Assembly (NCBI RefSeq): GCF_039634785.1
Contig: NZ_JBBIAB010000006.1
Span: 186,001-250,000, forward strand
DNA length: 64,000 nt
Reading direction: 5' to 3'
Source of the DNA: Tistrella mobilis
GTDB lineage: Bacteria > Pseudomonadota > Alphaproteobacteria > Tistrellales > Tistrellaceae
This document shows, in pieces, positions 2,648 through 44,423 of the stretch. Position numbers and translations under genes: made by a program. Position 1 is the stretch's first letter; every line of letters starts with the position of its first letter. The notes below the pieces were generated by a model. It did not search any database. It was given only the letters and a program-made list of their open reading frames with translations, and had not been told where the DNA came from.

Positions 2648-2661
2648 GATCGTTCCCGAAG

Positions 2662-4017: not shown

Positions 4018-4040
4018 CAGGCCACCTCGTATCTTCGATC

Positions 4041-4077
4041 TTTGATCAAACTTTACGCGCATGCCGACGCCTGTCAA
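4041..4077 (-). promoter_or_regulatory. Promoter with TTTGATCAAA operator, aminotransferase-hyuAB
   Basis: On the minus strand TTGACA (4077-4072), a 16-bp spacer and TAAAGT (4055-4050) form a sigma-70-like promoter. The perfect palindrome TTTGATCAAA (4041-4050) overlaps the -10 edge and the expected start point, as a repressor site would. The same palindrome is at the BKACE promoter. The adjacent GntR/FCD protein is the obvious candidate to bind it (inference). Confidence 0.65.
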
Positions 4078-4171
4078 GCGGCGCCGGCCGGAGGGGGAGC
4101 CGGCACCCCGTCAGAGGCACCGGGGCCGGACGGCGCAGCAGCGCCCGCCCGGCGAGGGGCAGACGAACCGG

Positions 4172-4900: not shown

Positions 4901-4968
4901 GTGCGTCTCCTTGGCCCCTGGTCCTCAAGTCTTCTGCCCGGCGGCCCGATCGTCGGGTGTTGCCGACA

Positions 4969-7535: not shown

Positions 7536-8554
7536 TCGATCACCACCCGCGGATCGGCGATCCCATAGGCGAGATCGACCATCAGATTGACCACCACGAA
7601 GATGCCGGCCATCAGCAGGACGAAGCCCTGCACCGGGGCATAATCCGAGGCGAGCAGCGCATCCAGCGTGTAGGAACCGACGCCCGGCCAGGAGAAGACC
7701 TTCTCCACCAGCACATTGGCGCCGAGCATGGTGGAGAACATGATGCCGGTGGTTGTCAGCACCGGCAGAATGGCGTTGCGGAGCGCATAGACATTGACCA
7801 CCTTCCAGCCCGGCAGGCCGAGCGAGCGGGCGGTGCGGACGAAATCCCCGCCCAGCGCCGCCAGCATCGAGGCGCGGGTCATGCGGGCCAGGGGCGCCAG
7901 CACGAACAGGGCCATGGTGATCGCCGGCAGCATCAGCTGGCCGAGGGCGGCCTGGAAGACCTCCAGGTCGCCGGCGAGCAGCGCGTCGATCAGCAGGAAG
8001 CCGGTCACCGGCGGCGGCGCGATCAGGAAGACGTCGATCCGGCCGGTGGGGTCGGGCGCCCAGCCCAGCAGATAGTAGAAGACGAAGATCAGCAGCAGGC
8101 CCGAAACGAAGGTCGGCATCGCCACACCGGCGGTGCAGACCACGCGGACCACATGGTCGAGCACCGAGCCGGGCATCAGCGCCGCCAGGATGCCGAGCGG
8201 CAAAGCGGTCGCGAGCGCCAGCACAAGGGCGACCACGGTGAGTTCGAGCGAGGCGGGCAGGCGTTCGGCCAGATCGTCCAGCACCGGCCGGCCGGTGGTC
8301 ATCGAGGTGCCGAGATCGCCGGTCGCGACATCGCCCAGATAGAGGATCAGCTGTTCGGGCAGCGAGCGGTCGAGGCCCAGCTTCTCGCGCATCGCCTGGA
8401 TTTCGGCCTCGCCGGAATTCGGACCAGAGGCGAAGAAGACGGCCGGGTCGCCGGGCAGAAGCCGCATCAGCACGAAGGTGAAGACCAGCACGCCCAGCAG
8501 CACCGGCAGGGCGGCGGCCAACCGTCGGGCGGACCGGTATGCGATCGAGCGCAT
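7532..8554 (-). CDS. ABC transporter permease (DppB-like)
   Basis: A 340-residue inner-membrane permease of the OppB/DppB branch. It has the N-terminal LLGVLVFTFVLMRLLPGDPA motif, a YLGDVATGDLGTS periplasmic segment and the EAA-type loop FVRTARSLGLPGWKVV. Start at 8554 with an AAAGGA-type ribosome site. It heterodimerises with the DppC-like protein. A strong hairpin separates it from the upstream binding-protein gene, probably lowering permease expression relative to that protein. Confidence 0.93.
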   Translation of the reverse strand: MRSIAYRSARRLAAALPVLLGVLVFTFVLMRLLPGDPAVFFASGPNSGEAEIQAMREKLGLDRSLPEQLILYLGDVATGDLGTSMTTGRPVLDDLAERLPASLELTVVALVLALATALPLGILAALMPGSVLDHVVRVVCTAGVAMPTFVSGLLLIFVFYYLLGWAPDPTGRIDVFLIAPPPVTGFLLIDALLAGDLEVFQAALGQLMLPAITMALFVLAPLARMTRASMLAALGGDFVRTARSLGLPGWKVVNVYALRNAILPVLTTTGIMFSTMLGANVLVEKVFSWPGVGSYTLDALLASDYAPVQGFVLLMAGIFVVVNLMVDLAYGIADPRVVIE

Positions 8555-8583
8555 GGGGGGCGTCCTTTCCCTGAGGCGGGTGG

Positions 8584-8623
8584 CTGCCCCGTGGCCCGGG
8601 CGATGGCCCGGGCCACGGGGCAG
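8584..8623 (-). terminator. Perfect 18-bp hairpin between dppA and dppB (attenuator)
   Basis: CTGCCCCGTGGCCCGGGC (8584-8601) is followed by loop GATG and its exact reverse complement (8606-8623). No T-run follows on the minus strand, so this is more likely an mRNA-stabilising or partly attenuating hairpin than a full terminator. Such stems are common behind abundant binding-protein genes. Confidence 0.75.
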
Positions 8624-8630
8624 GGCGGCG

Positions 8631-10256
8631 TCACTTGGTCCGGGTCAGGCTGCGATAGTCGGTCTGACGGTGGAACCAGTAGGTGAAGCCGTCGATGTTC
8701 CTGGCCATCACCGCATCGAGCGCGGGCTGCCAGAGCATCACGACCGGCACCTCGTCGGCGGCGATCTTGACCATGCGCTTCGCGGCCGCTTCATAGGCCG
8801 CGGGGTCGCGCTCGTAGCGCGCCTTGGCGGTCAGTTCGGCCAGTTCCTCGTTCACGAACGAGCCGTAATTCCACCGGGTCTCGCCCTGGAAGAACACCCG
8901 GAAGAAATAGTCGGCCGAGGGCAGCCAGGCGATGGCGCTTTCGGTGAAGAAGGGCAGCTTCTTTTCCGAGATCAGGGTGCCCATCTGCGCATCCGGCACC
9001 TTCTCGACGGTGACGTCGATGCCGATCTTGCCGAGCGATTCCTTGATCAGCGCCGCGATCGGCTCGCTGGTCGCGGCCGAGCCGACATTGAACGAGAAGG
9101 TGGTCTTGAAGCCGTCGGGGAAGCCGGCCTCGGCCAGCAGGCCCTTGGCCTTGTCGAGGTTGGTGGAATAGGGCAGGCGCTGCGGGAATTTGCCGGTGTC
9201 GGGCAGGTCCTTCCAGGTCGCCCCCCAGAGCGGCGCGCCGCGGCGGTAGAGGGCGGCGGTGAACATGTCGTCGAAGGGCAGCGCATGGGCGATCGCCTGG
9301 CGGACCTTGACGTTGTCGAACGGCGCCATCCGGGTGTTGAAGGCGATCATCTGGAAGGCGTTGACCTGCGGGATCGACACCACCTTGACGGCGCCGCGAT
9401 CCTTCAGCGCCAGCACGTCGCTTGCCTGCAGATCGATCGAGAGATCGGCGTCGCCGCGCTCGATCAGGCTGGCGCGGGTCGATGCCTCGGGCACGGTCTG
9501 GACGATGATCCGCTTGAAATAGGGCAGCGGGCCGCTCTTCCAGTCGTCGAACCGCTCCAGCACCACCTGCTGGCCGGCCTTGAAGGTCGAGACCTTGTAG
9601 GCGCCGCCCGAGGCCTGGTTTTCCTTCAGCCACTCGGTCGCCCAGGGATCCTCGGCGGTGGCGTGTTCCCTGGCGAGCTTCGAATTCAGGATGACCGGGA
9701 AGACCACGGCCAGGTTCGGCACCGCCAGCCGGTCGGGCTTGTCCAGCGTCACCTGGATGGTGTGGGCGTCGATGATCTTGAACTGATCGGGCGATTTCAG
9801 CGAACCGGTCGCCATCTGCGCGCCCGGCCCCTTCAGCGACACCGCGCGGTCCAGCGACCACTTCACGTCCTCGGCGGTCACCGGCGATCCGTCGTGGAAG
9901 GTGGCGTCGGGGCGGAGCTTGAAGGTGATGGTCAGGCCGTCATCGCTGATCGTGAAGCTTTCGGCCAGCTCCCCCTTCATATGGTCGAAGTCGTAGATAT
10001 AGCCGTCGCCGAACTTCTTCCGGTCCCAGCTGACCAGCCGGTCGTAGATGTTCCAGTTCAGGCCGAAGCCGTCGCGGGTGATGCCCTGCATGCCGGCGTC
10101 CAGGGTGTTCACCTGGCCGCCGGTCACCACGCGCAGCGTCTCTTCCCGGCTCTGGGCCTGGGCTGCGCCGGCAATGGCCGTCAAGGTCAGCGCCGCCGAG
10201 GCGGCGGCGGCAATGAGGCGGGCGCGCAGGCGCCCCCTCGGCCGTGTGTGCAGCAT
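8631..10256 (-). CDS. ABC transporter periplasmic binding protein, family 5 (DppA/OppA-like)
   Basis: A 541-residue extracytoplasmic solute-binding protein. It has an Arg-rich n-region, a hydrophobic core (about residues 15-32) and an AQA-type signal peptidase site near residue 34. The mature part has family-5 features: ESFTISDDGLTITFKLRPDA, FHDGSPVTAEDVKWSLDRA and FDNVKVRQAIAHALP. The SD AGGAGGCAGGA is very strong. It delivers the substrate (peptide, amino-acid amide or similar; not defined) to DppBC. It follows BKACE on the same strand. Confidence 0.93.
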   Translation of the reverse strand: MLHTRPRGRLRARLIAAAASAALTLTAIAGAAQAQSREETLRVVTGGQVNTLDAGMQGITRDGFGLNWNIYDRLVSWDRKKFGDGYIYDFDHMKGELAESFTISDDGLTITFKLRPDATFHDGSPVTAEDVKWSLDRAVSLKGPGAQMATGSLKSPDQFKIIDAHTIQVTLDKPDRLAVPNLAVVFPVILNSKLAREHATAEDPWATEWLKENQASGGAYKVSTFKAGQQVVLERFDDWKSGPLPYFKRIIVQTVPEASTRASLIERGDADLSIDLQASDVLALKDRGAVKVVSIPQVNAFQMIAFNTRMAPFDNVKVRQAIAHALPFDDMFTAALYRRGAPLWGATWKDLPDTGKFPQRLPYSTNLDKAKGLLAEAGFPDGFKTTFSFNVGSAATSEPIAALIKESLGKIGIDVTVEKVPDAQMGTLISEKKLPFFTESAIAWLPSADYFFRVFFQGETRWNYGSFVNEELAELTAKARYERDPAAYEAAAKRMVKIAADEVPVVMLWQPALDAVMARNIDGFTYWFHRQTDYRSLTRTK

Positions 10257-10366
10257 TCCTGCCTCCTGTCGATGGGTCCCGTGTGGTTTTTTGCCCGTGC
10301 GGTTCTTGTCTGATCCGTCTCGGTCTGGGTCGTCTCGGGGGCTTCAGACGGGTGGTCTGCCGCTCG

Positions 10367-10408
10367 CCGTCCCGATGCCTTGCGCTCCCCGCAAGGGCAT
10401 CGGGACGG
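10367..10408 (-). terminator. Hairpin between BKACE and the binding-protein gene
   Basis: CCGTCCCGATGCCTTGCG (10367-10384) pairs with 10390-10408 with one bulged base. It lies 35 bp after the BKACE stop and 110 bp before dppA. No strong T-run follows, so partial termination or transcript processing is likely. Confidence 0.6.
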
Positions 10409-10442
10409 GAGGGGGATGGTGCGGAAGGTCTGCGTCAGGCGA

Positions 10443-11420
10443 TCAGGCGGCGGCGGCCCTGGACGGAACGCCCAGCATGGCGCGCGCCTCTTCGGGGCTC
10501 GCGATCGGCCGGCCCAGCTCCTCGACGATCCGGCGGATCTTGGCGACCTGTTCGGCATTGCTTTCGGCCATCTTGCCCGGGCCGGCATAGAGGCTGTCCT
10601 CAAGCCCGACGCGGACATGGCCGCCCATGGCAGCCGCCATGGTCGCGAAATTGATCTGATGGCGGCCGGCGGCCAGCACCGACCATTCGAAGGCATCGCC
10701 GAACAGCCGGTCGGCGATGGTCTTCATGTGCATCAGATTGTCGGGGTCGGCGCCGATGCCGCCCAGAATGCCGAACACCATCTGCACGAAGAGCGGCGGG
10801 GTCGCGAGCTTGCGGTCCAGGAAATGCGCCAGCGTATAGAGATGGCCGACGTCGTAGCATTCGTATTCGAAGCGCGCGCCCCGGCGTTCACCCATCTCGC
10901 GCAGGATGGTTTCGATATCGCCGAAGGTATTGCGGAAGATGACGTCCTTCGTCGCCTCGACATAGGGCTTTTCCCAGGGGAAGCGCCAGGTCTGATAGCG
11001 CTGGCCCAGATCGGAATAGACGAAGTTCATCGAGCCCATGTTGAGCGAGCAGATCTCGGGCGAGAGGCCGAGCGGGCCTTCCAGCCGCTGCTCCATGGTC
11101 ATGGCGGTGGAGCCGCCGGTGGTGATGTTGATCACCGCATCGCATTGCTGGCGGATGCGCGGCACGAAGCCCTCGTAATGGGCAAGCTTCGGGCTCGGTC
11201 GGCCGTCTTCGGGATCGCGCGCATGCAGATGCAGGATCGCGGCGCCGGCCTTCGCGGCATCCACCGCCTGGGTGGCGATGTCGTTGGGCGTGTAGGGCAG
11301 ATGCGGCGACATGGTCGGCGTGTGCACGGCGCCGGTCACCGCACAGCTGATGATCAGCTTCTTGCCGCGGCTGCGGGGCTTTGCGGGCGCATCGGCCGCG
11401 GTCTCGGGCGCGTCTGCCAT
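10443..11420 (-). CDS. Beta-keto acid cleavage enzyme (BKACE, DUF849 family)
   Basis: A 325-residue Zn-dependent BKACE/3-keto-5-aminohexanoate cleavage enzyme. Known family reaction: a beta-keto acid plus acetyl-CoA gives acetoacetate plus a CoA thioester. Visible motifs are LIISCAVTGAVHTPTMSPHL, the metal-binding AAILHLHARDPEDGRPS, INITTGGS and the C-terminal GGHVRVGLEDSLYAGPG with the conserved Glu. The first 18 residues are an Ala/Pro-rich extension. Substrate class cannot be read from motifs. Neighbours (aminotransferase, hydantoinase, thiolase, importer) suggest the step after transamination of an imported amino compound. Confidence 0.93.
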   Translation of the reverse strand: MADAPETAADAPAKPRSRGKKLIISCAVTGAVHTPTMSPHLPYTPNDIATQAVDAAKAGAAILHLHARDPEDGRPSPKLAHYEGFVPRIRQQCDAVINITTGGSTAMTMEQRLEGPLGLSPEICSLNMGSMNFVYSDLGQRYQTWRFPWEKPYVEATKDVIFRNTFGDIETILREMGERRGARFEYECYDVGHLYTLAHFLDRKLATPPLFVQMVFGILGGIGADPDNLMHMKTIADRLFGDAFEWSVLAAGRHQINFATMAAAMGGHVRVGLEDSLYAGPGKMAESNAEQVAKIRRIVEELGRPIASPEEARAMLGVPSRAAAA

Positions 11421-11764
11421 GGGGGAGGGTCCTCGTCCTCGGGGGTAATGACATCAGGGGCATGCCCGTCCGGCCGCGGTCGATCACATGCCATCGTATT
11501 CATTCGACGACAGTGGAAGGCCGCGCCCGCCAGGCGGGGAAGACGCCCGGCGAGAGGCCGCCGGGGAAGGCGGCCTGCCGGGCAGGCATGCGGGGGGGAA
11601 GGAGGTGGTGAGCGATTGATGCTCGATCTTTGATCAAAGATTTGATCATCTGGCCCCTGCTTGTCAAACTCCTTTCTGCCCCGGCCGTCGTCGAAGACGG
11701 CCCTGGCGCATGGGCCCTGGCGCATGAGCCCTGGGGCATGACACACCACAGACGGGGATAACCG
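11421..11764. other. Divergent intergenic region, BKACE / DUF35-thiolase
   Basis: 344 bp. It holds the minus-strand promoter and double TTTGATCA boxes described separately at 11626-11667. A purine-rich stretch around 11590-11610 and a repeated CCCTGG(C/G)GCATG motif (11701-11740) are also present. I see no gene and no clear plus-strand sigma-70 promoter. The BKACE leader would be about 210 nt. Confidence 0.6.
11626..11667 (-). promoter_or_regulatory. Promoter with perfect 16-bp palindrome plus half-site, BKACE operon
   Basis: The minus strand has TTGACA (11667-11662), a 16-bp spacer and TCAAAT (11645-11640). ATCTTTGATCAAAGAT (11626-11641) is a perfect palindrome and TTTGATCA (11641-11648) abuts it. 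Both boxes cover the -10 and start point, as at 4041-4077, implying one shared regulator. Confidence 0.65.
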
Positions 11765-12187
11765 ATGCTGAGAGGCAGCCTGCCCGAACCGACGCCGCAG
11801 ACGGCCTGGTTCTGGGACGCGACCCGCAGGGGAGAGCTTTACGTTCAGGAATGCACCGCCTGCGGCGGCCGCCATTTCCCGCCCCGGCCCTTCTGCCCGG
11901 CCTGTGGCGGCCGGGAGGTGACGGCGCTGAAATGCAGCGGCCGGGCGACGCTCTGGAGCTATGTGATCAACCACATGGTGCCCAGGGACGGCGATGGCCC
12001 CTATGCGGTCGCGGTGGTGCGGCTGGACGAGGGGCCGTTGATGATGACCAATATCGTGGATTGCCCCCAGACGCCCGAGGCGCTGCCGCTGGATATGGCG
12101 CTGGAGGTGGTGTTCGAGCCGGTCTCCGAGACGATCACCCTGCCCAAATTCCGGCCGGTGGCCACGAGCGACGGAGCCGGCGCATGA
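11765..12187 (+). CDS. DUF35 (OB-fold, zinc-ribbon) thiolase partner protein
   Basis: A 140-residue protein with an N-terminal rubredoxin-like zinc ribbon (CTACGG...CPACGG, residues about 30-50) and a C-terminal OB-fold segment. DUF35 proteins form complexes with thiolase-like enzymes (BbsA-BbsB thiolase, ChsH2-Ltp2 aldolase are known cases) and help bind acyl-CoA. The stop overlaps the thiolase start as ATGA, so the two are probably made as a 1:1 complex. It is divergent from BKACE. Confidence 0.9.
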   Translation: MLRGSLPEPTPQTAWFWDATRRGELYVQECTACGGRHFPPRPFCPACGGREVTALKCSGRATLWSYVINHMVPRDGDGPYAVAVVRLDEGPLMMTNIVDCPQTPEALPLDMALEVVFEPVSETITLPKFRPVATSDGAGA

Positions 12188-13332
12188 GCCTGACCCACCC
12201 CCTGGCCTCGATCGTGGGGGCTGCCGAAACCACCCGGCTCGGCGTGCTGCCCGACATGTCGGAACTGGATCTGCATGCCGATGCGGCACTGAATGCGCTG
12301 GCCGATTGCGGCCTCGCCCCTGGCGATATCGACGGCATCGCCACGGCGGGCGAAAACCCCGCGATGCTGGCCCAGTATCTGGGCATCACGCCCACATGGG
12401 TGGATGCCACCAATATCGGCGGCTGTTCCTTCATGGCCCATGTCGCCCATGCCGCGGCGGCGATCCGGGCCGGGCTCTGCCGCACGGTGCTGATCACCCA
12501 TGGTGAAAGCGGCCGGTCGCGGGTCGGCCATGTGCCCTGGACGGTGCCCGCGCATTCGCTGATGGGCCAGTTCGAACTGGGCTACACCCCGACCATGGCG
12601 GCGACGCTGTTCACCCTGCCGGCGCTGCGCTACATGAAGACCTTCGGGGTGACCGAGGAAGATCTCGCCCGGGTGACGGTGGTGCAGCGGCAATGGGCCG
12701 GTTTCCACCCGCGCGCCTTCCGCCGCGATCCGGTGACGGTCGACGAGGTGCTGGCCTCGCGCATGATCGCCTGGCCGTTCCGCATCCTGATGTGCTGCCT
12801 GGTCACCGATGGCGGCGGCGCCCTGGTCCTGACCGCCCCCGACCGCGCGGCCGATTTCCCGACCCGCCCCGTCGACGTGATCGGCACGGGCGAGAGCGTC
12901 GAGCATCTGATGATCACCGAGATGAAGGACTACACCAGCTCCCGCGCCTTCCGCGTGGCCGGGGACCAGGCCTTCGCCGCCGCGGGCATCGACCGCGCCG
13001 ATGTCGACCATCTGATGATCTACGACGCCTTCGCCCATGTGCCGCTCTATGGGCTGGAGGCGCTGGGCTTCGTGAAACCGGGCGAGGCGGCCGGCTTCAT
13101 CGCCGACGGTCACACCGCCCCCGGCGGCCGCCTGCCGATGAACACCAATGGCGGCGGCATCAACTACATGCATTCCGGCATGTACGGCATGTACGCGCTT
13201 CAGGAAGCCGTCCGCCAGATGCGCGGCACGGCGCCCGAAGGGGCACAGATCAGGGACGCCCGCATTTCGGTCGTCCAGGGCGTGGGCGGCATGTTCGGCA
13301 CCGCCGGCACCGTCATCCTGGCCCGCCGCTGA
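12184..13332 (+). CDS. Thiolase-like (SCP-x/lipid-transfer type) acetyl-CoA acyltransferase
   Basis: A 382-residue thiolase-superfamily protein of the type that pairs with DUF35. It has DIDGIATAGENP, a candidate nucleophile Cys in NIGGCSFMAHVAHAA, YDAFAH and the C-terminal NGGGINYMHSGMYGM loop. The start at 12184 overlaps the DUF35 stop by 4 bp. Expected to cleave or (retro)condense a CoA thioester. Its position suggests it finishes degradation of the acyl-CoA made by BKACE. A retro-aldolase role, as in Ltp2, cannot be excluded. Confidence 0.88.
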   Translation: MSLTHPLASIVGAAETTRLGVLPDMSELDLHADAALNALADCGLAPGDIDGIATAGENPAMLAQYLGITPTWVDATNIGGCSFMAHVAHAAAAIRAGLCRTVLITHGESGRSRVGHVPWTVPAHSLMGQFELGYTPTMAATLFTLPALRYMKTFGVTEEDLARVTVVQRQWAGFHPRAFRRDPVTVDEVLASRMIAWPFRILMCCLVTDGGGALVLTAPDRAADFPTRPVDVIGTGESVEHLMITEMKDYTSSRAFRVAGDQAFAAAGIDRADVDHLMIYDAFAHVPLYGLEALGFVKPGEAAGFIADGHTAPGGRLPMNTNGGGINYMHSGMYGMYALQEAVRQMRGTAPEGAQIRDARISVVQGVGGMFGTAGTVILARR

Positions 13333-36234: not shown

Positions 36235-36807
36235 CTACAGGATCGACCGGAACACCGCCGCCACCTGATCGGTGGTGGGTTTGGGGCCCTGGCCGGTGGC
36301 GTACATCAGCGTGATGCCGTCGATCAGGCCGGCGGCGGTTTCGACCGGGACATCGGGGCGGCCATCGGCGATCAGGGTCAGAAAAAAGGCGATCGGGCGG
36401 CGGGCGGCCGATGTCAGCTGCGTGCCGAGATCCGCGAGTTCCGGGCGGCGGGCGGCGGCCATGGTCAGTTCCATCCGGGCCAGGAACAGGGTGCGTTCCG
36501 TGTCGGCATAGGTGACGAGTTCCCGGGCGACATAGGCGACCGCCGAATCCAGGCCGTCGCGGGCGGCGATGTCGGCGAAGCCCAGCTGAAGGTCGTCGCA
36601 ATCCTTTTCCAGCAGGGCCGCCAGATGTTCTGCGGCCGCGATCAGCAGGGCCGTCTTCTTCGGAAAATAATACGAGCAGGAGCCCTGAGGGAGGCCGGCG
36701 GCCTCGTCCACGGCCCGGTGAGTCACGCCCTCCAGCCCGCGGGTTCCAAGCAGGCCGATGGTGGCGTCGAGTATCGCGCGCCGACGCGCGAGCTTGTCGG
36801 TTGACAT
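36235..36807 (-). CDS. TetR-family repressor
   Basis: A 190-residue TetR regulator: N-terminal HTH (ILDATIGLLGTRGLEGVTHR, EAAGLPQGSCSYYFPKKTAL) and a helical ligand domain. It is divergent from a RidA-family gene, with the perfect inverted repeat CTCTACA-AA-TGTAGAG only 5 bp upstream of its start. Probably represses itself and ridA. Ligand unknown. Confidence 0.9.
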   Translation of the reverse strand: MSTDKLARRRAILDATIGLLGTRGLEGVTHRAVDEAAGLPQGSCSYYFPKKTALLIAAAEHLAALLEKDCDDLQLGFADIAARDGLDSAVAYVARELVTYADTERTLFLARMELTMAAARRPELADLGTQLTSAARRPIAFFLTLIADGRPDVPVETAAGLIDGITLMYATGQGPKPTTDQVAAVFRSIL

Positions 36808-36812
36808 GGATC

Positions 36813-36828
36813 CTCTACAAATGTAGAG
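36813..36828. promoter_or_regulatory. TetR operator between tetR and ridA
   Basis: CTCTACA-AA-TGTAGAG, a perfect 7-2-7 inverted repeat, 5 bp before the TetR start and 48 bp before the RidA start. Best explained as the TetR binding site for both divergent promoters. Confidence 0.65.
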
Positions 36829-36876
36829 ATTTCTTATGCAATAGCATGGAAATCCCAGATGATGCCGGAGGAAAGC

Positions 36877-37284
36877 ATGACACAACCGATCATCCGCTTG
36901 AACCCGTCGACGCTGCCCGATACCAGCGGCATCGGCTATTCCCAGATTTCGGTGGTGGAGCCGGGGCGCATGGCCTGGGTGTCGGGGCAGGTGGCCTGGC
37001 GGGCCGACGGCACGGCCGTGCCCACGGGGCTTGCCGCGCAGATGGAAGTGGTGGCCGGAAATGTCCGGGCCGCGCTCGCGGATCTTGGCGCCGGCCCGGC
37101 CGATGTCGTGATGGCCCGGGTCTATGTGGTGGATCTGACCCCTGAGCGGCTGGACGAGATGATGCCGGGCTTCCGGGCGCTGTTCGGCACGGCGCAGCCT
37201 TCCGTTACCGGCATCGGTGTGGCCGCGCTGGCGGCGCCGGAGCTTCAGATCGAACTGGAGCTGGTCGTCCGGCTGCCGGATTGA
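36877..37284 (+). CDS. RidA/YjgF-family protein
   Basis: A 135-residue Rid-superfamily protein: GYSQISVVEPGRMAWVSGQV, NVRAALADLGAGPADVVMAR, TPERLDEMMPGFRALF and the end LQIELELVVRL. The RidA imine-hydrolase arginine, usually in a YVxDxxRA(x)-type context, is not evident. This may be one of the Rid subgroups with other reactions. GGAGGAAAG precedes ATG 36877. Ends 6 bp from the convergent HDO gene. Confidence 0.88.
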   Translation: MTQPIIRLNPSTLPDTSGIGYSQISVVEPGRMAWVSGQVAWRADGTAVPTGLAAQMEVVAGNVRAALADLGAGPADVVMARVYVVDLTPERLDEMMPGFRALFGTAQPSVTGIGVAALAAPELQIELELVVRLPD

Positions 37285-37290: not shown

Positions 37291-38859
37291 TCAGATCAGG
37301 CCGTCGCGGGCCCAGCCGGCCAGATCCCGCGCCGGTACCGGCAGCCAGTCGGGGACGGGGCGGCGGGCCGGGTCGCCATGGAAGGCGGCGAGCCAGCCCA
37401 GCGCGCGGGCGTTCAGCTCTACCATCAGCGCATAAAGATCCAGCGCCCGGCGGGCATCGTCGCGGCCCAGATGCGGGATTTCGGCACCCAGCCGGCGGGG
37501 CATGGTGGTGTGATCGAGGCCGATATTGATCTGCTCATGGGCGCGGACCTCGGCATCCTCTGCGGCGGTGATGCCGGCGGCGGCCAGCCGGCCGTTCATC
37601 GGATTGGGCCGGCCGGGCAGGCCTTCGGTCACGATCAGCACCGCCGGGAAGGCGGCGGGTGCACGATCGGCGATCAGGCCCAGCAGGTCGACATAGGCCG
37701 TGAAGGGCGGCAGCGGCAGACCGTCGATCACCGCGTCGGCATCGAGCCCCAGGCGGCGGCAGGCCTCCAGCTCATGGGCTTCATGGCCGCTTTCCTCGAC
37801 ATGATAACGCCGCATGCGGCCGCGCAGTCCCGGGCGCAGCGCCATGCGCATCGCCGGCAGGAAGATGTCGGTGATCCGCGCCGAAACATGGTACTGCGCC
37901 AGATAGACGCCGCGCGCGATCGCGGTTGCGATACCGGCATCCCGGCCGGCCAGCAGCGCCCCGATCCGGTCGTCGCCGATGGCGGAGAGCAGGGCCGGGG
38001 TCATCGCCTCGGCGGTGAGGATCAGGCCGATGCCGGTTTCGGGGATCGGGGTTCCGGCGGGCGGCAGCGCCCGGCGTTCGGCCCCGGGCAGGCCCGCCAG
38101 GATCAGCGTGGTTGCCGCCACCCCCAGATGGCGTTCGGCTTCCGTGATGTCATAAAGACAGCCGGGCGGGGCCGAGAACCGTGCCTCGGTGCCGGTCAGC
38201 CGGGCGAGCAGGCGCCCGGTGGCGACCAGGCTCAACGGCGCGGTCACCGCCCAGGCCTCGACCAGCAACCGCAGGATGGCGGCATGGAATCCGGCGCCCT
38301 GCGGCAGCTCCGGCGGCGGGGCGAAGGGGCCCGCCTGGCCGCCGCCGGCGATCACGTCGCGGATGCGGTCGAGCAGGCCGCGGGCAAGATCCAGCATGGC
38401 GGTGTGGTCGAGCCCGCCGATCTCGCGCCGCCCGGCGGCGATCCAGCCCGCCGCGCGGTCGAGTGCTGCATCCAGCCGGGCATGATCGGCGACCAGAACA
38501 TCGTGGCCGTCATCGGTTTCGGTGATCAGCCCCAGCCGGTCGAGCCCGTCCAGAAGATCGACCAGCCCGTCGGGGTCCGGGTCGGCGCCCGCCGCACGCC
38601 GCTGTGCGCGGGCCGCCGAGGCGCTGCGTATCGCAGCCCAATCCCCCGCCGCCGCATCGCGCAGCCGGTCGAGCCGGGCGGCGAGGTCGGCCGCACCGAT
38701 GCCGGTGACGTCGAGTTCGGTGACGCCGCCGTCATGGACCAGGGCGAGGGTGTCGGGGCTGCGGGGATCGATCCGCAGCACCGCCAGCCGCGGCCGTCGA
38801 TAGGCGCCGAGGCTCCAGGGGGAGAAGGGGATACTCGCGGGGGAGGCGGAAGCGGTCAT
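37291..38859 (-). CDS. RRE-like/heme-oxygenase-like diiron oxidase (HDO), single
   Basis: A 522-residue protein. Residues about 20-115 resemble a leader-binding winged helix (starts RRPRL, ends LLDGLDRLGLITE). The C-terminal about 220 residues have a heme-oxygenase-like diiron fold with candidate ligands His324 (AQYHVS), Glu355/Glu356 and His359 (YHVEESGHEAHE) and a late helix with HEQINIGLDH (441-450). HDO enzymes activate O2 for N-oxygenation, decarboxylation or C-C cleavage. It overlaps the double-HDO gene by 4 bp (ATGA) and ends the peptide/ThDP/HDO operon. I recognise no characterised close relative. Confidence 0.75.
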   Translation of the reverse strand: MTASASPASIPFSPWSLGAYRRPRLAVLRIDPRSPDTLALVHDGGVTELDVTGIGAADLAARLDRLRDAAAGDWAAIRSASAARAQRRAAGADPDPDGLVDLLDGLDRLGLITETDDGHDVLVADHARLDAALDRAAGWIAAGRREIGGLDHTAMLDLARGLLDRIRDVIAGGGQAGPFAPPPELPQGAGFHAAILRLLVEAWAVTAPLSLVATGRLLARLTGTEARFSAPPGCLYDITEAERHLGVAATTLILAGLPGAERRALPPAGTPIPETGIGLILTAEAMTPALLSAIGDDRIGALLAGRDAGIATAIARGVYLAQYHVSARITDIFLPAMRMALRPGLRGRMRRYHVEESGHEAHELEACRRLGLDADAVIDGLPLPPFTAYVDLLGLIADRAPAAFPAVLIVTEGLPGRPNPMNGRLAAAGITAAEDAEVRAHEQINIGLDHTTMPRRLGAEIPHLGRDDARRALDLYALMVELNARALGWLAAFHGDPARRPVPDWLPVPARDLAGWARDGLI

Positions 38860-40931
38860 CGGGCAGGCTCTCCGCGGGTGGCGGTCATCGAAAGCGGCAG
38901 GCGCAGGGTCGGGATCGGGTCGGCACCCTGCCCGTAATGGCTGAGGATGCGGCGCTCCAGCCGGTCGAAGGCTTCGAGCAGGGTGACGGCCGCCTTCAGC
39001 GTCACCAGAGTCTGCTCCCGGCCGACGAAATCACGCAAGCCCATCAGGCGGGACGAGATGTCGCCATGCGCACCTTCGTCGTTCAGCCCGGCATGCCAGA
39101 CCAGCGGCGACCAGAAGCCTTCTGGCATGTCGAGCGCCCGGGCGCGATCGACCAGCAGATCGTGGAACCGCTGCGCCGGCCGTTCGAACAGGAAGAGCAG
39201 GGCTTCGAACGAAACCGGATCCTGGGCGGCGAGCACCGCCAGCGTCGAGGTGAGCGCGAAAGTCTCGGGCAGCGGCACCAGGCGGTCGAGCAGGTCCTCG
39301 TCGATGCCGACCGCAGCCAGGGCATCGGCAAGGGTGCGGTCGTGGCCGACCTCTTCGGCGAGGAAGCCTTCCAGCAGCCGGGTCCGGGCCGGCGATCCGG
39401 CATGGCCGAGTGCCGGGGCGACCGCCCGCGGGCCCATCCGCACCACCTGATGATACTCGATCGCATAGCCGATCAGCTGCGCGCGTGTGGCGCTGCCTTC
39501 GGCGAAGGCCCGGCCCAGGGCACCGGTGCAGATCCGCGCCTCGGCGGCGGCGACGAAGCGGCGCAGCTCGCGCATCGCCTGGGCGCCCGACACGCCATGG
39601 GCGATGCCGGGATCGGCGTCTTCCAGCAGGCCCAGCCCGTCCAGCGCCTGCAGGATTTCGCCCACACCCGCGGCGCCGAAACCGGGGGCCACGGCCGCCA
39701 GCTGCGCCCGCGGGGCACCCGCGGCGAGGGCGGCCATCAGCCGGCGCGCCTCGTCCAGCCCTTCCGGCAGGATGTCGATCGCACAGCCCTGATCGCCGTA
39801 ATCCAGGCGGATGGAGGCGGGCTCGATCGCCACGCCGACACCGTCCCTGAGTTTCGGCCGGCGCGGCACCGCCGTCTCGGGCGCCGAGGGATCGGTGGTG
39901 ACGTTGCCCGCGATCGCCGGCAGCCCGGTATCGGGGGCGAAGCCCTCCACCCGCCGCACCCGGTCGCCCGGCACGGCATAGTGATCGAGGATCGCGCCGT
40001 AGAAATCGTCATACAGCTCGACGAACAGGTCGAGCCCGTCGATCACCCGGCCGAGCTCGTCCTCGCCGATGCCGTCGAGCGCATCGAAGATCTCGCGGGT
40101 GAGCAGGCCGTGGCCGCCGTTCATGTTGATGCCGGCATGGGCACGGATCGGGCCGATGAAGGCCTCGTCCATGCCGCGGCGCTCGGCCGCGCGCACGAAG
40201 CTGTCGACGTCGATGTCCCGGCCTTCCAGCACGCCGAGCGTCGCGAAGAACAGGATCGGGTCGGTCCGGGCCCAGTGCGACAGCGCATTGGCAAGCGCCA
40301 TCGTCTCGGGCAGCGGCACGGTGCGGGCCAGGATTTCGCGGTCGAGCCCCACGGCCTCCAGCGCCTTCAGGATCAGCTCGTCATGGCCGACCTCTTCGCC
40401 GTAGAAGCGGTTCATCGCCACCCGCGCGGGCGTGCTGCCGGTCCAGGCCAGGACCGGGCTGTCGAACCAGCTTTCGCGGAACAGGAAGTGGTAGTTCTCG
40501 ATCGCCATGCCATGGAAGACCCGCTCGGGCACGGCATGGGGATCGTCGAGCATCGCCCGCCAGAACCGGTTGCGATACAGCCGGGTGAAGAGCAGGCGGT
40601 TGGTCCGGTCCTCGATCGCGAACAGGGCGGCCCGGCCCGACCGGGCGGCCGGCGGGGCCGCTTCGTCGACCAGGTCGAAGGCGGCGAGGTCGCGGATCAG
40701 CCGGGGCATGTTGGCGCCCCCGGCCTCGCGCTCCAGCGCCTCGGCATCGCGACCGCCGTCGATCAGGCGCAGCACCCGGCCCAGCGCCGGGGCATCCACG
40801 CCCCCGGCCTCCAGATGGAAGCGCGTGCCGCCGCGGTCGAGAGCGATGCCGTCCGCCGCCTCGACGATGCGGGCGGCAAGGCGCGGGCGGCGGGGTGCAG
40901 AGGGGTGGGGGGGAAAGGTGTCGACGGACAT
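38856..40931 (-). CDS. Tandem [RRE-like + HDO] x2 protein
   Basis: A 691-residue duplicated protein. Each half is a winged-helix/RRE-like segment (about 14-92, RRPRL start; about 357-440, RRPKL start) followed by an iron-containing redox HDO domain. Ligand candidates in half 1: His148 (IENYHF), Glu180 and His183 (GEEVGHDE), His265/His274 (HAGINMNGGHG). In half 2: His494 (IEYHQV), Glu527/His530 (AEEVGHDR), Glu619/His622 (NDEGAHGD). Half 1 has Asn where half 2 has the ExxH glutamate. The halves are clearly paralogous. Likely cytosolic oxidase acting on the peptide encoded upstream (inference). Confidence 0.78.
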   Translation of the reverse strand: MSVDTFPPHPSAPRRPRLAARIVEAADGIALDRGGTRFHLEAGGVDAPALGRVLRLIDGGRDAEALEREAGGANMPRLIRDLAAFDLVDEAAPPAARSGRAALFAIEDRTNRLLFTRLYRNRFWRAMLDDPHAVPERVFHGMAIENYHFLFRESWFDSPVLAWTGSTPARVAMNRFYGEEVGHDELILKALEAVGLDREILARTVPLPETMALANALSHWARTDPILFFATLGVLEGRDIDVDSFVRAAERRGMDEAFIGPIRAHAGINMNGGHGLLTREIFDALDGIGEDELGRVIDGLDLFVELYDDFYGAILDHYAVPGDRVRRVEGFAPDTGLPAIAGNVTTDPSAPETAVPRRPKLRDGVGVAIEPASIRLDYGDQGCAIDILPEGLDEARRLMAALAAGAPRAQLAAVAPGFGAAGVGEILQALDGLGLLEDADPGIAHGVSGAQAMRELRRFVAAAEARICTGALGRAFAEGSATRAQLIGYAIEYHQVVRMGPRAVAPALGHAGSPARTRLLEGFLAEEVGHDRTLADALAAVGIDEDLLDRLVPLPETFALTSTLAVLAAQDPVSFEALLFLFERPAQRFHDLLVDRARALDMPEGFWSPLVWHAGLNDEGAHGDISSRLMGLRDFVGREQTLVTLKAAVTLLEAFDRLERRILSHYGQGADPIPTLRLPLSMTATRGEPAR

Positions 40932-40969
40932 GGGGAACGGCGCCTCTCGTGATCGGGATCCATCCAGGC

Positions 40970-42727
40970 TCAGGACTTGAAGGCGTCGGGATCGCCGCCG
41001 CCGAAGGCTGCGGCGATCGCCTTGCCCGAGACGGCGCCGGCCGGGCGGCGGGCGGCCGGATCGAGCATCACCTCGACCACGGCCGGCACGCCCGCCTCGG
41101 CGGCGCGCGCGGCACGGGCCAGGGCGGGGGCGATGCCCGAGGCGCGCTCCACCCGCTCGCCATGGCCGCCCAGCGCTTCGGCCAGGCGGTCGTAGCGGGT
41201 GGCGCGGCTTAAGAACTGGCCGTCGAGATTGGCGTCGCCGAAGATGTCGTCGTGGAAATTGCGCATCTCGCCCCAGGCGCCGTCATTGCCGATCAGCACC
41301 ACGAAGCCGGTCTTCGCGCGCACGGCGCTGTCGATTTCCATGGCATTGAAGCCGAAGGCGCCGTCGCCCTGCACCGCCAGCACCGGGCATGCGGGCCGGG
41401 CCAGGCGGGCGGCAATGGCGAAGGGCAGGCCGATGCCCAGGCAGCCGAAGGGGCCCGGATCCATCCAGTGGCCCGGGCGGCCGACCGGGATGGCGCCGGC
41501 GGTTTCGGCGATCACGTCGCCGCCGTCGCCGATGGTGACGGTGTCGGGGGTGACGAACCGGGCGGCCTCGGCTGCGAAACGGGCATGGTCGATCGGGCCG
41601 TCGCCGTCCAGGCGGTCTTGACGTGCGCGGGCCGCCCTGGCGTCGCGGGCGGCAAGCTGTTCGGGCCAGGCGGCCGGCACCCGGTGGCCATCGGCCTCGA
41701 AAGTCTGGGCCAGGGCGGTCAGGAAATGGCGCGGGCTGGCGGTAACGCCCATGACCGCGCCGCGATTGCGGCCAAGCCTTGCGGGGTCTGCATCGACATG
41801 GACGATCACGCAATCGGGATCGATCAGCGGTGCGCGGCCGTAATTCAGGCGGAAGTCGAAATCGATGCCGATCGCGATGATCAGATCGGCCGCGGGCAGG
41901 GCGCGGGCGCGGGCGGCGCTGTGCATCTGCGGATGGTCCGGCGGCAGGATGCCGCGGGCGGCACCATTGGCGAAGACCGGGCAGCCGGTCTCGCGCACGA
42001 AACGGTCGAGCGCCTCTTCCGCCCCCGCCCAATAGACGCCCGATCCGGCCAGCAGCAGGGGGGTGCGGGCGGCGCGGAGCAGGGCGGCGGTCTTGGCCAC
42101 GGCGTCCGGATCGGCGGCGGGGGCGTGGCTCTGGCCGCGCCCCTGCGCGAAACTGAGCGCATCCGCCGGCACGCGACCCATCAGCAGGTCGAAGGGCAGA
42201 TCCAGTGCCACGGGGGCCGGCCGCGGCACCATGGCGGTGGCGGCGGCCTCTGCCAGCAATTCGGGCAGGCGCCACAGATCGCCCGGCGTCGCGGTCATGC
42301 GGGTGACGGGCTTCAGCATGTCGAGCTGGGGGGCTTCCTGCAGCGCCCCCATGCCTTCCGTAGCCCCCGGATTGCGGCCGGCCAGCAGCATCAGCGGGCT
42401 GCCGGCCGCCCATGCATTGGCGACCGCGACCGCGGCCCCGACCACGCCCGGGCCTGCGGTTGCAGCCGATACCTGAACCTGGCGGGTCAGCCGGGCCATG
42501 GCATCGGCGGCATGGGCGGCGGCCTGTTCATGGCGGAAATCGACCAGCCGGATGCCGGTGCGGGCGCAGCCGTCGAACAAGGGCGACAGATGCCCGCCGG
42601 TCAGCGTGAAGAGATGCCCGATGCCCAGCGCGCGCAGCTGGGCGGCGGCGACGATGCCGCCATGGAGCAGGGGGGCCGGATCGGCGTCGATCCGCGATGC
42701 AGCCGGATCGGGGGCGGCGTGGCTCAT
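40970..42727 (-). CDS. Thiamine-diphosphate enzyme, acetolactate-synthase-like
   Basis: A 585-residue ThDP enzyme with the three usual domains. The PYR domain has the activating glutamate in DFRHEQAAAHAADAMAR (Glu67) and GPGVVGAAVAVANAW. The PP domain has the GDG...N motif (VQGDGAFGFNAMEID...NDGAWGE). It resembles acetolactate synthase, oxalyl-CoA decarboxylase or 2-hydroxyacyl-CoA lyase; motifs do not decide between them. No ilvN-like small subunit is nearby. It sits between the small peptide gene and the HDO genes, so it may carry out carboligation or decarboxylation in that pathway. Confidence 0.85.
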   Translation of the reverse strand: MSHAAPDPAASRIDADPAPLLHGGIVAAAQLRALGIGHLFTLTGGHLSPLFDGCARTGIRLVDFRHEQAAAHAADAMARLTRQVQVSAATAGPGVVGAAVAVANAWAAGSPLMLLAGRNPGATEGMGALQEAPQLDMLKPVTRMTATPGDLWRLPELLAEAAATAMVPRPAPVALDLPFDLLMGRVPADALSFAQGRGQSHAPAADPDAVAKTAALLRAARTPLLLAGSGVYWAGAEEALDRFVRETGCPVFANGAARGILPPDHPQMHSAARARALPAADLIIAIGIDFDFRLNYGRAPLIDPDCVIVHVDADPARLGRNRGAVMGVTASPRHFLTALAQTFEADGHRVPAAWPEQLAARDARAARARQDRLDGDGPIDHARFAAEAARFVTPDTVTIGDGGDVIAETAGAIPVGRPGHWMDPGPFGCLGIGLPFAIAARLARPACPVLAVQGDGAFGFNAMEIDSAVRAKTGFVVLIGNDGAWGEMRNFHDDIFGDANLDGQFLSRATRYDRLAEALGGHGERVERASGIAPALARAARAAEAGVPAVVEVMLDPAARRPAGAVSGKAIAAAFGGGDPDAFKS

Positions 42728-42763
42728 CGGGGGGCTTCCTTCGGCGTCGGCGTCGGCGGGGAA

Positions 42764-42796
42764 GGCGCCGGCCCGGGAGCCCCCGGGACCGGCGCC
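42764..42796 (-). terminator. Hairpin between peptide gene and enzyme genes
   Basis: GGCGCCGGCCCGGG (42764-42777) pairs with CCCGGGACCGGCGCC (42782-42796) with one bulge, 22 bp past the peptide stop and 36 bp before the ThDP gene. No T-run. It probably stabilises or attenuates, so the peptide would be made in excess of the enzymes. Confidence 0.65.
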
Positions 42797-42818
42797 CGAT
42801 CGTTCAGATGTCGCCGGC

Positions 42819-42986
42819 TCAGAGATGCACGGCGATCAGCACCGGCTTCTCCTGGGTGGCCGGGCGGATCTGGACCAGGAAGGTCTTGCCGCCGGTCAGC
42901 CCGGTGCGAAGGGCGATGTCGGGCTCCTTCGCGTCCAGCCCGAGCTTCGCCACCGTATCCCTGACGTCCACCACTTTGTCGCTCAT
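42819..42986 (-). CDS. Small conserved-looking peptide, candidate RiPP precursor
   Basis: A 55-residue peptide, first gene of the operon with the ThDP enzyme and HDO proteins. It starts MSDKVVDVRDTVAKLGLDAK (helical, leader-like), has a central TGLTGGKTF and ends EKPVLIAVHL. No Cys, no signal peptide, no membrane helix. GGAGGGAGA precedes ATG 42986; an ATG at 43001 would add five residues. A strong -10 (TATAAT) lies just upstream and a hairpin just downstream. It could instead be a small folded subunit. Confidence 0.7.
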   Translation of the reverse strand: MSDKVVDVRDTVAKLGLDAKEPDIALRTGLTGGKTFLVQIRPATQEKPVLIAVHL

Positions 42987-43001
42987 GGCGTCTCCCTCCA
43001 T

Positions 43002-43214: not shown

Positions 43215-44423
43215 ATGTCCGCCCCCCAGCCGCAGTCGAAGCCGAATGGACCAGGCCGTCAGATCGCAGCCTGGCTGCATGAAATGGTGGCGCTGCGCCA
43301 CGATCTGCATCGCCATCCGGAACTGGCGTTCGAAGAACGGCGGACCGCCGCGCTGGTGGCCCGATCGCTGGCCGATTGGGGGTGGGAGGTTCATGAAGGC
43401 CTGGGCGGCACCGGTGTCGTCGGCACCCTGACCACCGGGCCGGGGCCGGTGATCGGCATCCGGGCCGATATGGACGCCCTGCCGATCACCGAGACCACCG
43501 GCCTGCCCCATGCCAGCCTGCATGACGGCCGGATGCATGCCTGCGGCCATGACGGCCACACCACCATCCTGCTGGCGGCCGCGCGCTGCCTGGCCGAGCG
43601 GCGGCGCTTCCGCGGCACCGCGCGGGTGATCTTTCAGCCGGCCGAGGAACATGGCGGCGGGGCGGCGGTGATGATGCGCGACGGGCTGTTCACCCGCTTT
43701 CCGGTCGATCGGATCTATGCCCTGCACAACATGCCGGGGCTGCCTGCCGGCGTGTTCGGCTTCCGCCCGGGCGCGCTGACCGCGGCATCGGACGATTACG
43801 TGATCACCGTCCGCGGCCGCGGCGGCCATGGCGCCTATCCCGAACGGGCGGTGGACCCGATCGTGGCCGGATCGGCGATCGTGCTCGCCCTGCAATCGGT
43901 CGTGGCGCGCAACGTGCCGCCCACCCGGCAGGCCGTGGTGACGGTGGGCGCGTTTCGGGCCGGCGAGGCGGCGAACGTCATTCCCGAAACGGCGGTGCTG
44001 AAGGCGAGCGTGCGGACCACCGACCCCGAGACCCGCAGCCTGATCGAGATGCGGATCCGCGAGCTGGTCGCGGGCCAGGCCGCCGCCTGGGGGGCTTCGG
44101 CGACCGTCCAGGTGGACCGCGGCTATCCGGCGGTGATCAACGATGCCGGCGCGACCGCCTTTGCGCGCGCGGTGGCGGTGGACGCCTTCGGTGCCGGGCG
44201 GGTGATCGACATCCCCGAGGCATCGATGGGCAGCGAGGATTTCGCCTATATGCTGGAGGGCGTTCCCGGCTGCTATCTGGTGGTGGGCAACGGCATCGAA
44301 TCAGGACCGACCAGCTGCATGATCCACAACCCCGGCTATGACTTCAACGATGCGGTTCTGGGCGATGCCGCCGCTTTCTGGGTGGCATTGGCCGAAGCCT
44401 CGGCGCCGGCAGGTGCCGCCTGA
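43215..44423 (+). CDS. M20-family amidohydrolase (hippurate/N-acyl amino acid hydrolase-like)
   Basis: A 402-residue M20D peptidase/aminoacylase. Metal motifs: RHDLHRHPELAFEE, IRADMDALPI, MHACGHDGHTTILL, PAEEHGGGAAVM and GSEDFAYMLE. Cytosolic, hydrolyses N-acyl amino acids or similar amides. GGAGG lies 8 nt before ATG 43215. It ends 2 bp before the GGDEF-EAL gene, an unusual pairing of a metabolic hydrolase and a signalling protein that implies cotranscription. Confidence 0.92.
   Translation: MSAPQPQSKPNGPGRQIAAWLHEMVALRHDLHRHPELAFEERRTAALVARSLADWGWEVHEGLGGTGVVGTLTTGPGPVIGIRADMDALPITETTGLPHASLHDGRMHACGHDGHTTILLAAARCLAERRRFRGTARVIFQPAEEHGGGAAVMMRDGLFTRFPVDRIYALHNMPGLPAGVFGFRPGALTAASDDYVITVRGRGGHGAYPERAVDPIVAGSAIVLALQSVVARNVPPTRQAVVTVGAFRAGEAANVIPETAVLKASVRTTDPETRSLIEMRIRELVAGQAAAWGASATVQVDRGYPAVINDAGATAFARAVAVDAFGAGRVIDIPEASMGSEDFAYMLEGVPGCYLVVGNGIESGPTSCMIHNPGYDFNDAVLGDAAAFWVALAEASAPAGAA

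Follow-up and report, generated by a model that had tools for sequence, protein, structure and literature searches.

What do three haem-oxygenase-like dimetal oxidase (HDO) domains do in an operon that opens with a peptide of only 55 residues? This question is raised by a locus on the minus strand of a 64,000-nucleotide stretch of Tistrella mobilis DNA (contig NZ_JBBIAB010000006.1, positions 186,001 to 250,000), which as a whole is called the window in the following. The HDO domains are distinct from the similarly named HDOD family (PF08668). A first-pass annotation had proposed that the peptide, a thiamine diphosphate (ThDP) enzyme, a tandem HDO protein and a single HDO protein constitute a system that produces a ribosomally synthesised and post-translationally modified peptide (RiPP). 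Our analysis favours, with a probability of about 0.72, a pathway centred on the HDO domains, in which the peptide serves as a RiPP precursor or as a carrier and its C-terminal residue is probably oxidised; both the reaction and the product are predictions from sequence.

The gene organisation described in the first-pass annotation was recovered in full. The four open reading frames (ORFs) form a single minus-strand operon, the peptide gene carries a strong Shine-Dalgarno (SD) sequence, and the last two genes, encoding the tandem and the single HDO protein, are coupled by an ATGA overlap. The ThDP enzyme matches TPP_enzyme_N, M and C, all above their Pfam cut-offs, and the tandem HDO protein contains two PF14518 stretches. 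A TATAAT string at 43013-43008, located 8 nucleotides (nt) from the SD sequence, is a putative -10 element. No Pfam or NCBIfam model matches the peptide, which is 96% identical to a copy on the T. mobilis plasmid pTM3, where the tandem HDO protein has a copy with 99% identity. The features of the operon are as follows, with the three HDO domains designated HDO-A, HDO-B and HDO-C and with RRE standing for RiPP recognition element.

42994..42999, minus strand: SD sequence GGAGGG of the peptide gene, by direct reading
42819..42986, minus strand: precursor-like peptide of 55 residues with the C-terminus ...EKPVLIAVHL followed by the stop codon, by the tail motif of 14 of 14 HDO-A loci and the substitution pattern
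42764..42796, minus strand: G+C-rich hairpin between the peptide stop and the first enzyme gene, by folding
40970..42727, minus strand: ThDP enzyme of 585 amino acids, acetolactate synthase / 2-hydroxyacyl-CoA lyase group, a Tistrella-specific accessory, by Pfam and motifs
38856..40931, minus strand: tandem HDO protein of 691 amino acids, by two PF14518 stretches (E 8e-18)
39900..40931, minus strand: HDO-A half, with a predicted PqqD/RRE-like N-terminal domain (about residues 14-95) and the HDO domain (about 97-321), by model, hhalign and alignment
38856..39899, minus strand: HDO-B half with its own N-terminal domain and ligand positions complete with Asn, by alignment
37291..38859, minus strand: HDO-C of 522 amino acids, with an N-terminal domain, an extra helical region and the HDO domain, ligand positions complete with Asn, by model and alignment

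Is the peptide a conserved partner of these oxidases? Relatives were sought with the tandem HDO protein as query, which retrieved loci from Chimaeribacter, two Photorhabdus, a Lysobacteraceae metagenome-assembled genome (MAG), Pseudomonas, Vibrio sp. AND4 and plasmids of Robbsia and Rhodococcus. An HDO-A profile search in 348 genomes from the genus of the Pseudomonas added three loci to that of the genome at the centre of the search (4 of 348). The resulting 14 HDO-A loci comprise three from Tistrella (the window, L046 and L013, including a second Tistrella species) and eleven from beta- and gammaproteobacteria and one actinomycete (L011, L012, L014-L019, L043-L045). A short SD-led ORF is located upstream of HDO-A in all of them, or upstream of the ThDP gene in the case of Tistrella; a lack of the peptide beside homologous HDO genes, which the first-pass annotation had named as grounds for giving up its proposal, was thus not encountered. 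The starts, which were picked by SD score and are unproven, give lengths of 17 to 55 residues: 17 in Rhodococcus, 20 in the Lysobacteraceae MAG (MKKITIVPKNKRPVLLPVHL), 27 in Robbsia, 32-37 in the Chimaeribacter, Photorhabdus, Vibrio and Pseudomonas loci and 55 in Tistrella. These ORFs easily escape annotation: the records of Robbsia and Rhodococcus do not list the peptide ending in -HL among their genes, and that of Enterobacter lacks a related one ending in -RL, described below, although these gene tables are incomplete.

All 14 peptides terminate in [AVS]-His-Leu, including those of the three Pseudomonas loci (3 of 3) that were recovered once the motif was already known. A regular expression for the tail, written after the peptides had been seen, produced 14 matches in 559,528 six-frame codons, and each match is this peptide. 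The conserved leader and variable core that had been expected are reversed in the HDO-A loci, where the last 18-20 residues are kept and the N-terminal part varies. The stretch preceding the tail reads K[VI]VIK[PA]K in most gammaproteobacterial peptides and FLVQIRP in Tistrella. Across the last 17-20 codons, synonymous changes exceed replacement changes in nine of ten non-Tistrella pairs, which are not independent of each other (7:1, 8:1, 7:2, 7:2, 5:1, 6:1, 12:3 for L014-L018, 12:4 and 6:3), and equal them in the tenth (L043-L045, 2:2); within Tistrella, the ratios over 55 codons are 7:1 and 2:2. Because the codon changes are mostly synonymous, the peptide ORF is very likely translated and its tail under purifying selection.

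The HDO-A family is rare and scattered. At a profile cut-off of E <= 1e-60, no HDO-A was found beyond the centre genome among 345 genomes from the order of Photorhabdus luminescens, 341 from the order of the Pseudomonas and 227 from the genus of the Vibrio, and at 1e-50 none among 398 Pseudomonadota; the genus of P. luminescens yielded 2 of 12 genomes. With a broader HDO profile (E <= 1e-12), 1 of 148 genomes from the order of the Lysobacteraceae MAG was positive. Viral contigs contained no relatives, and no phage matched when the HDO of a second locus in this MAG (L077) was used as query. The scan of genome contigs used exact patterns from one query and therefore under-samples the family. Outside Tistrella, HDO-A and HDO-B are encoded by separate genes, and HDO-C is homologous to the single HDO protein of the window. 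In a midpoint-rooted tree, the clades of HDO-B and HDO-C are supported by 0.99 and 1.0, respectively, and that of HDO-A by 0.24, and for this reason we make no claim on the order of duplication.

Do the three domains look like functional oxidases? PF14518 is matched (E up to 5) by 14 of 14 HDO-A, 13 of 13 HDO-B and 8 of 11 HDO-C sequences (best HDO-C 5e-8); the HDO-C of the window itself has no Pfam match at this threshold. The HDO-A model, built from 12 sequences, reached a mean predicted local distance difference test (pLDDT) score of 79, and its bundle matches 3dde (Z 21.2, 2.8 Å, 223 aligned residues), CADD (19.9), HrmI (18.5), PqqC (17.8) and FlcD (17.5). The HDO-C model is weaker (pLDDT 72) and retrieves HrmI in Foldseek with E 9e-5. 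Thus, the models predict the haem-oxygenase-like helical bundle of the HDO superfamily. At E up to 0.1, the HDO-A profile retrieves only two PDB sequences, namely 3dde and the mangotoxin enzyme MboA (E 0.0019). In MboA (Badding et al. 2026, PMC13185094), two irons are bound by E86, H89, E143, H172, D176 and H181, and D90 serves as a ligand that can exchange; the C-terminal carboxylate of the peptide substrate is held on iron and Tyr82 is the proposed base. In the profile alignment, in which the MboA chain numbers are by count 25 higher than those of the paper, E86/H89/D90/E143/H172/D176/H181 correspond to E180/H183/D184/E236/H265/N269/H274 of HDO-A. Apart from the Asp-to-Asn exchange, HDO-A resembles MboA both in sequence and in its aligned ligand positions.

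The six ligand positions, with Asn replacing Asp, are complete in 13 of 14 HDO-A sequences (L019 has Tyr183), 13 of 13 HDO-B and 11 of 11 HDO-C sequences and in the HDO of L077; that is, five of the six positions carry the canonical residues, and the Asp/Glu position is Asn in every HDO-A, HDO-B and HDO-C sequence. PMC11363339 predicts that about 4% of HDO groups have an Asn among their last three ligands. With these ligand sets, all three HDO domains look competent to bind metal. The MboA base Tyr82 is replaced by Phe176 in 14 of 14 HDO-A sequences and by Phe or Leu in 13 of 13 HDO-B sequences, and a Tyr at the corresponding spacing occurs only in HDO-C (Tyr352, 11 of 11 sequences), where it is assigned by spacing only. 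HDO-A and HDO-B therefore need not perform the desaturation catalysed by MboA, their reaction may differ from it, and because of Phe176 we do not classify HDO-A as an acetylenase. E145 and H148 were considered as the first ligand pair of HDO-A and rejected, because the alignment places E86/H89/D90 of MboA on E180/H183/D184; the E145-N-Y-H148 segment is conserved with exceptions, as Rhodococcus has Gln145 and three Pseudomonas have Asn148.

How would such enzymes recognise the peptide? A leader-binding-like winged helix had been proposed in front of each HDO domain. The N-terminal domains of HDO-A and HDO-C are predicted to consist of four strands, three helices and a further strand. In hhalign comparisons with 24 PqqD sequences (24 of 30 loci, leaving out the near-duplicates L053 and L075, the truncated L076, and L063, L064 and L072), the probabilities are 93% for HDO-A, 53% for HDO-B, 19% for HDO-C and 80% for the pooled domains, and four decoy families stay at or below 1.3%. 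Adding the domains of L077 and of an Enterobacter relative changed these values to 88% for HDO-A and 80% for HDO-B, with decoys at or below 1.7%. Thus, the proposal is supported for HDO-A, moderately for HDO-B and weakly for HDO-C. A fold search with the full HDO models listed no RRE for the N-terminal domain, as the HDO domain fills the match lists.

A further recurring element is a stem-loop 3' of the peptide stop, which is present in the 14 loci, although in the window and in L045, whose stem was identified by eye only, the minimum-energy structure of 90 nt differs from the named stem. Folded alone, the stem of the window reaches -34.8 kcal/mol, with a z-score of -2.55 against dinucleotide shuffles, and the stems of L016, L014 and L018 reach z-scores of -5.1, -5.0 and -4.5. 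Runs of T are clear in L014, L015, L018 and L019, and the window has no long T run.

Which genes belong to the pathway? The conserved unit consists of peptide, HDO-A and HDO-B and is found in 13 of 14 loci; in the remaining one, from Vibrio, the contig ends first. HDO-C was found in 11 of 14 loci, plus a piece on a second Vibrio contig (L078), which includes most of its C-terminal part, is 73% identical to the HDO-C of L014 over 264 residues and is accompanied by relatives of the aminotransferase, ATP-grasp ligase, MFS and GNAT genes. In L014, L015, L017, L043, L044 and L045, the HDO genes are associated with a class III aminotransferase, an ATP-grasp ligase, an MFS carrier and GNAT relatives; L016 differs in its MFS protein and has two ATP-grasp stretches besides aminotransferase and GNAT genes. 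The Robbsia locus encodes an aminotransferase, an EamA carrier and GNAT, and the Rhodococcus locus MFS and GNAT proteins. HDO-C was looked for in Rhodococcus and not found, and a search for ATP-grasp found none in the Robbsia, Rhodococcus or Tistrella loci. The ATP-grasp ligase matches LAL_C2 just below its cut-off. The P. luminescens locus L019, with a 38-residue ATP-grasp remnant, no HDO-C found and the exchange to Tyr183, looks like a decaying copy. Adjoining this degenerate locus is a gene (4377-7121 of L019) with Pfam Tc-toxin and RHS repeats.

The ThDP enzyme has a different distribution. Among curated models, it scores best, though below the cut-offs, with those of acetolactate synthase (PRK05858) and 2-hydroxyacyl-CoA lyase; its motifs include the Glu of HEQ (residue 67) and GDG (residue 454). 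The gene is present in 3 of 14 HDO-A loci, all from Tistrella; searches of the remaining 11, of the second Vibrio contig and of the more distant loci L077, L083 and L087 did not recover it. The four-gene set of the first-pass annotation is hence a Tistrella arrangement, and the ThDP enzyme was rejected as a general core enzyme, because among the loci examined its gene is confined to this genus.

Three single examples selected from weaker HDO matches and read by eye indicate how far the association of peptide and HDO may extend. L077 contains, in this order, a peptide gene, an HDO gene (335 residues), an HlyD-family gene, a Peptidase_C39 ABC exporter gene (E 4e-32) and an NTP_transf_5 gene. Its SD-led peptide of 47 residues ends in ...ALSECEFAEITGA-AVLGVVAHL, and the part up to the divide after ALSECEFAEITGA looks, by eye, like a double-glycine-like leader. 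In L083, on a plasmid of Enterobacter chuandaensis, the 15-residue peptide MKVTRRVIPVMNARL ends in -RL and has the SD sequence AAGGAG in front of it; next come a hairpin and a 449-residue HDO, which contains HEKINIEGEH, and an NTP_transf_5 gene adjoins here as in L077. The wider L083 cluster (937-13174) also includes an APH-like kinase, a U32 peptidase, a class I/II aminotransferase, an NAD(P)-dependent oxidoreductase, a second HDO, a DUF2817/AstE-like protein, MFS and a histidine phosphatase. Searching E. coli genomes by blastn did not recover the Enterobacter unit. In L087, from an alphaproteobacterium (G051), an SD-led ORF of 21 residues at 7237-7302 (MNIKKISTPVKVRSVKGATCG) ends in Cys-Gly and is followed by a terminator-like hairpin with a T run and by an HDO of 341 residues (7363-8388) with an N-terminal domain, whose motif HSRIDEGLGH represents the Asp form of the ligand set. 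The pairing of an encoded precursor-like peptide with a candidate modifying enzyme, as is typical for RiPP pathways, is thus seen in L077, L083 and L087 as well as in the 14 HDO-A loci.

As a contrast, the 500 nt upstream of five HDO genes that differ in the spacing of the third helix (H-x3-D-x2-H; L005, L006, L080, L081 and L082) contain no SD-led short ORF in four of five cases; L006 has one ORF of 65 codons, and L080 has one chance -AHL reading that lacks a start. The Alteromonas and Pseudoalteromonas plasmids of this set (L080 and L082) share genes for a thermostable hemolysin, an AMP-binding protein, an HDO and an SDR protein, which represent an unrelated HDO setting.

Based on these data, the pathway might operate as follows. 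The short peptide would be made from its strong SD sequence, and the stem-loop 3' of the stop would reduce transcription into the enzyme genes, which would leave the peptide in excess. The PqqD/RRE-like domain of the HDO proteins, best supported for HDO-A, would grip the basic, strand-like stretch preceding the tail. The free His-Leu end could then enter the iron site of HDO-A, where iron would hold its carboxylate in the way described for MboA, and the terminal residue would be oxidised with O2 by desaturation, decarboxylation or carbonyl formation; HDO-B and HDO-C may oxidise the same tail further. These oxidation steps are proposed because the ligand sets are complete, because the nearest characterised HDO is MboA and because the motif is fixed at the stop codon. 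Class III aminotransferases and ThDP carboligases/decarboxylases both typically act on carbonyl groups. In most clusters, the aminotransferase and the ATP-grasp ligase would work up the oxidised tail, a role that would fall to the ThDP enzyme in Tistrella. Export would involve the MFS or EamA carriers, with acetylation by GNAT as likely self-protection; in L077, the C39-peptidase exporter would cleave the double-glycine-like leader and export a short core.

Several observations weigh against an HDO-centred RiPP or carrier-peptide pathway. The tail is invariant within the HDO-A family, and variation (-RL, -CG) is seen only beside more distant HDOs. A ligand Asp of MboA is Asn throughout HDO-A, HDO-B and HDO-C, and its base is Phe in HDO-A and Phe or Leu in HDO-B. 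No leader peptidase was noticed in the clusters with three HDO domains. The N-terminal domain of HDO-C is weakly similar to PqqD, the domains of L077 and Enterobacter alone reach 4.6% against PqqD, and PF05402 did not appear for any HDO-A, HDO-B or HDO-C sequence. Moreover, the folding energy of the 90-nt segment is not clearly better than that of mononucleotide shuffles in the three Tistrella loci and in L043.

The invariance of His-Leu in 14 of 14 HDO-A loci bears in particular on the question whether the peptide is the product or a handle. In a carrier-peptide variant, which we consider possible though clearly the less probable form, the conserved tail would be a handle on which the terminal residue(s), or an amino acid that the ATP-grasp ligase has attached to them, undergo oxidation before their release as a small amino-acid-like antimetabolite, similar to the formation of 3-thiaglutamate on TglA (PMC9016710). 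Aminotransferase, ATP-grasp ligase, MFS and GNAT would suit a small exported amino-acid derivative. In contrast, ATP-grasp was not found in three of the genera, the C39 exporter of L077 fits the export of a whole core peptide, and no gene of the peptide aminoacyl-tRNA ligase (PEARL) type was noticed among the identified genes, a family that was not searched for. That ThDP chemistry acts on the peptide together with the HDOs, as originally proposed, is unlikely: the gene lies between peptide and HDO genes in three of three Tistrella loci and its ThDP motifs are intact, but it was not found in any of the other loci compared (L078, L077, L083 and L087 included), and its nearest solved relatives, judged by name, act on small acyl-CoA and aldehyde substrates.

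It is quite unlikely that the operon encodes an ordinary small-molecule HDO pathway with the peptide as a small accessory protein, such as a subunit or a metal carrier. Several characterised HDOs use free amino acids, as described in PMC12614342 and PMC13185094, and the clusters carry amino-acid enzymes; yet peptides of 15-20 residues with a fixed C-terminal end would hardly be subunits, and MboA, the characterised HDO matched by sequence, uses a peptide. Even less probable is a regulatory leader, in which the short ORF would be an attenuator or arrest peptide that controls HDO transcription through the hairpin without being a substrate. The order of short ORF, SD sequence and stem-loop ahead of enzyme genes would agree with this, and arrest peptides can be conserved near their C-terminus. 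However, amino acids are kept while codons change, a run of regulatory codons is missing, the enzymes carry a PqqD-like domain, and the L077 relative combines a double-glycine-like leader with a C39-peptidase exporter. We retain the HDO-centred RiPP or carrier-peptide pathway as the most likely reading. For the wider proposal that fusions of RRE and HDO define a new RiPP class, the odds appear about even; in such a class, the free C-terminal residue of precursors of 15-55 residues would be remodelled by one to three iron oxidases, tails ending in -HL, -RL or -CG would lead to different products, and interchangeable partner enzymes would handle the new carbonyl or amine.

The surroundings of the operon contain one further gene shared by the Tistrella loci.

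43215..44423, plus strand: divergent M20-family amidohydrolase/peptidase, found in 3 of 3 Tistrella loci

A link of the M20 protein to the pathway, for instance in leader removal or release, is unproven. Downstream of the operon, genes for RidA (36859-37284) and a TetR protein (36235-36885) are located; RidA was dropped as a pathway gene, as no relative was found in the other two Tistrella loci. The whole Tistrella genome contains seven matches to the PqqD family (PF05402), which suggests several RRE-dependent pathways.

If this reading is correct, a family of non-haem iron oxidases whose best-known members act on free amino acids and fatty acids would head a ribosomal-peptide class of its own, with precursors short enough to be missed by annotation. 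It would then provide a simple mining rule, namely to look for an HDO that has an N-terminal PqqD-like domain and is directly preceded by a short SD-led ORF and a stem-loop; in addition, the C-terminus of peptides could be edited with a compact system that is genetically encoded. HDO-A, HDO-B, HDO-C and their relatives also constitute a natural series on the role of Asn in the HDO ligand set. In the open literature, with most subscription journals outside its scope, we found no paper on this peptide family and no HDO with its own PqqD-like domain that accompanies a very short precursor of invariant C-terminus, and the term 'heme oxygenase' is absent from the main texts of two RRE papers.

Among known systems, daptides are also modified at the C-terminus, and the class III aminotransferases of L016 and L011 score 177 and 158 bits, respectively, with the model of the daptide aminotransferase, a distant similarity far below the model cut-off of 450; HDOs are not known from daptide clusters. 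The pyrroloquinoline quinone (PQQ) pathway with PqqA, PqqD and PqqC, including the natural PqqCD fusion, likewise associates a haem-oxygenase-fold enzyme with a PqqD-type domain; PqqC matches HDO-A with the Z-score given above, and a Foldseek search with HDO-C lists PqqCD among weak matches (E 0.15 and above). PqqC converts a small intermediate at a late stage of its pathway and uses no metal. In the HDOs of the window, in contrast, the PqqD-like domain is N-terminal and the HDO ligand positions are kept. In the TglA pathway, a Cys residue is transferred from tRNA to the peptide, where TglHI, a multinuclear non-haem iron-dependent oxidative enzyme (MNIO), modifies it; neither an MNIO nor a tRNA-dependent ligase was identified in the HDO clusters, the aminoacyl-tRNA-dependent ligase family not having been searched for. 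The likeness lies in a small ribosomal peptide with C-terminal chemistry (PMC9016710).

The one earlier case of an HDO-type enzyme in a RiPP pathway that we found is thiovarsolin (PMC6511847), which is also the work that a review of HDOs from 2026 cites in connection with ribosomal peptides. The haem-oxygenase-like protein VarO, reported to be about 30% identical to MboA, acts on a ribosomal peptide, and its cluster includes an ATP-grasp ligase and an MFS carrier. VarO belongs to a YcaO/TfuA thioamide pathway in which the core is repeated, and it desaturates Arg (PMC6511847). In the HDO-A clusters, by comparison, no oxidising enzymes other than the HDOs were identified and the conserved part is the tail; no YcaO or TfuA was noticed among the identified genes of the loci, neither having been the aim of a dedicated search. 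Beyond RiPPs, the HDO PolF is reported to form azetidines on Ile and Val via a 3,4-desaturated intermediate. MboA differs from HDO-A by Asp instead of Asn and Tyr82 instead of Phe, its tripeptide is built by ligases and not by ribosomes, and its pathway involves the reductase MboB and the deiminase MboE, of which no counterpart was noticed at the window locus, none having been searched for (PMC13185094). Nevertheless, the pattern E-x2-H-[D/E], E, H-x3-[D/N]-x4-H aligns between MboA and HDO-A, and MboA is an HDO acetylenase that oxidises the C-terminal residue of a peptide by desaturation to an alkyne, encoded in a cluster that also contains ATP-grasp ligases (PMC13185094).

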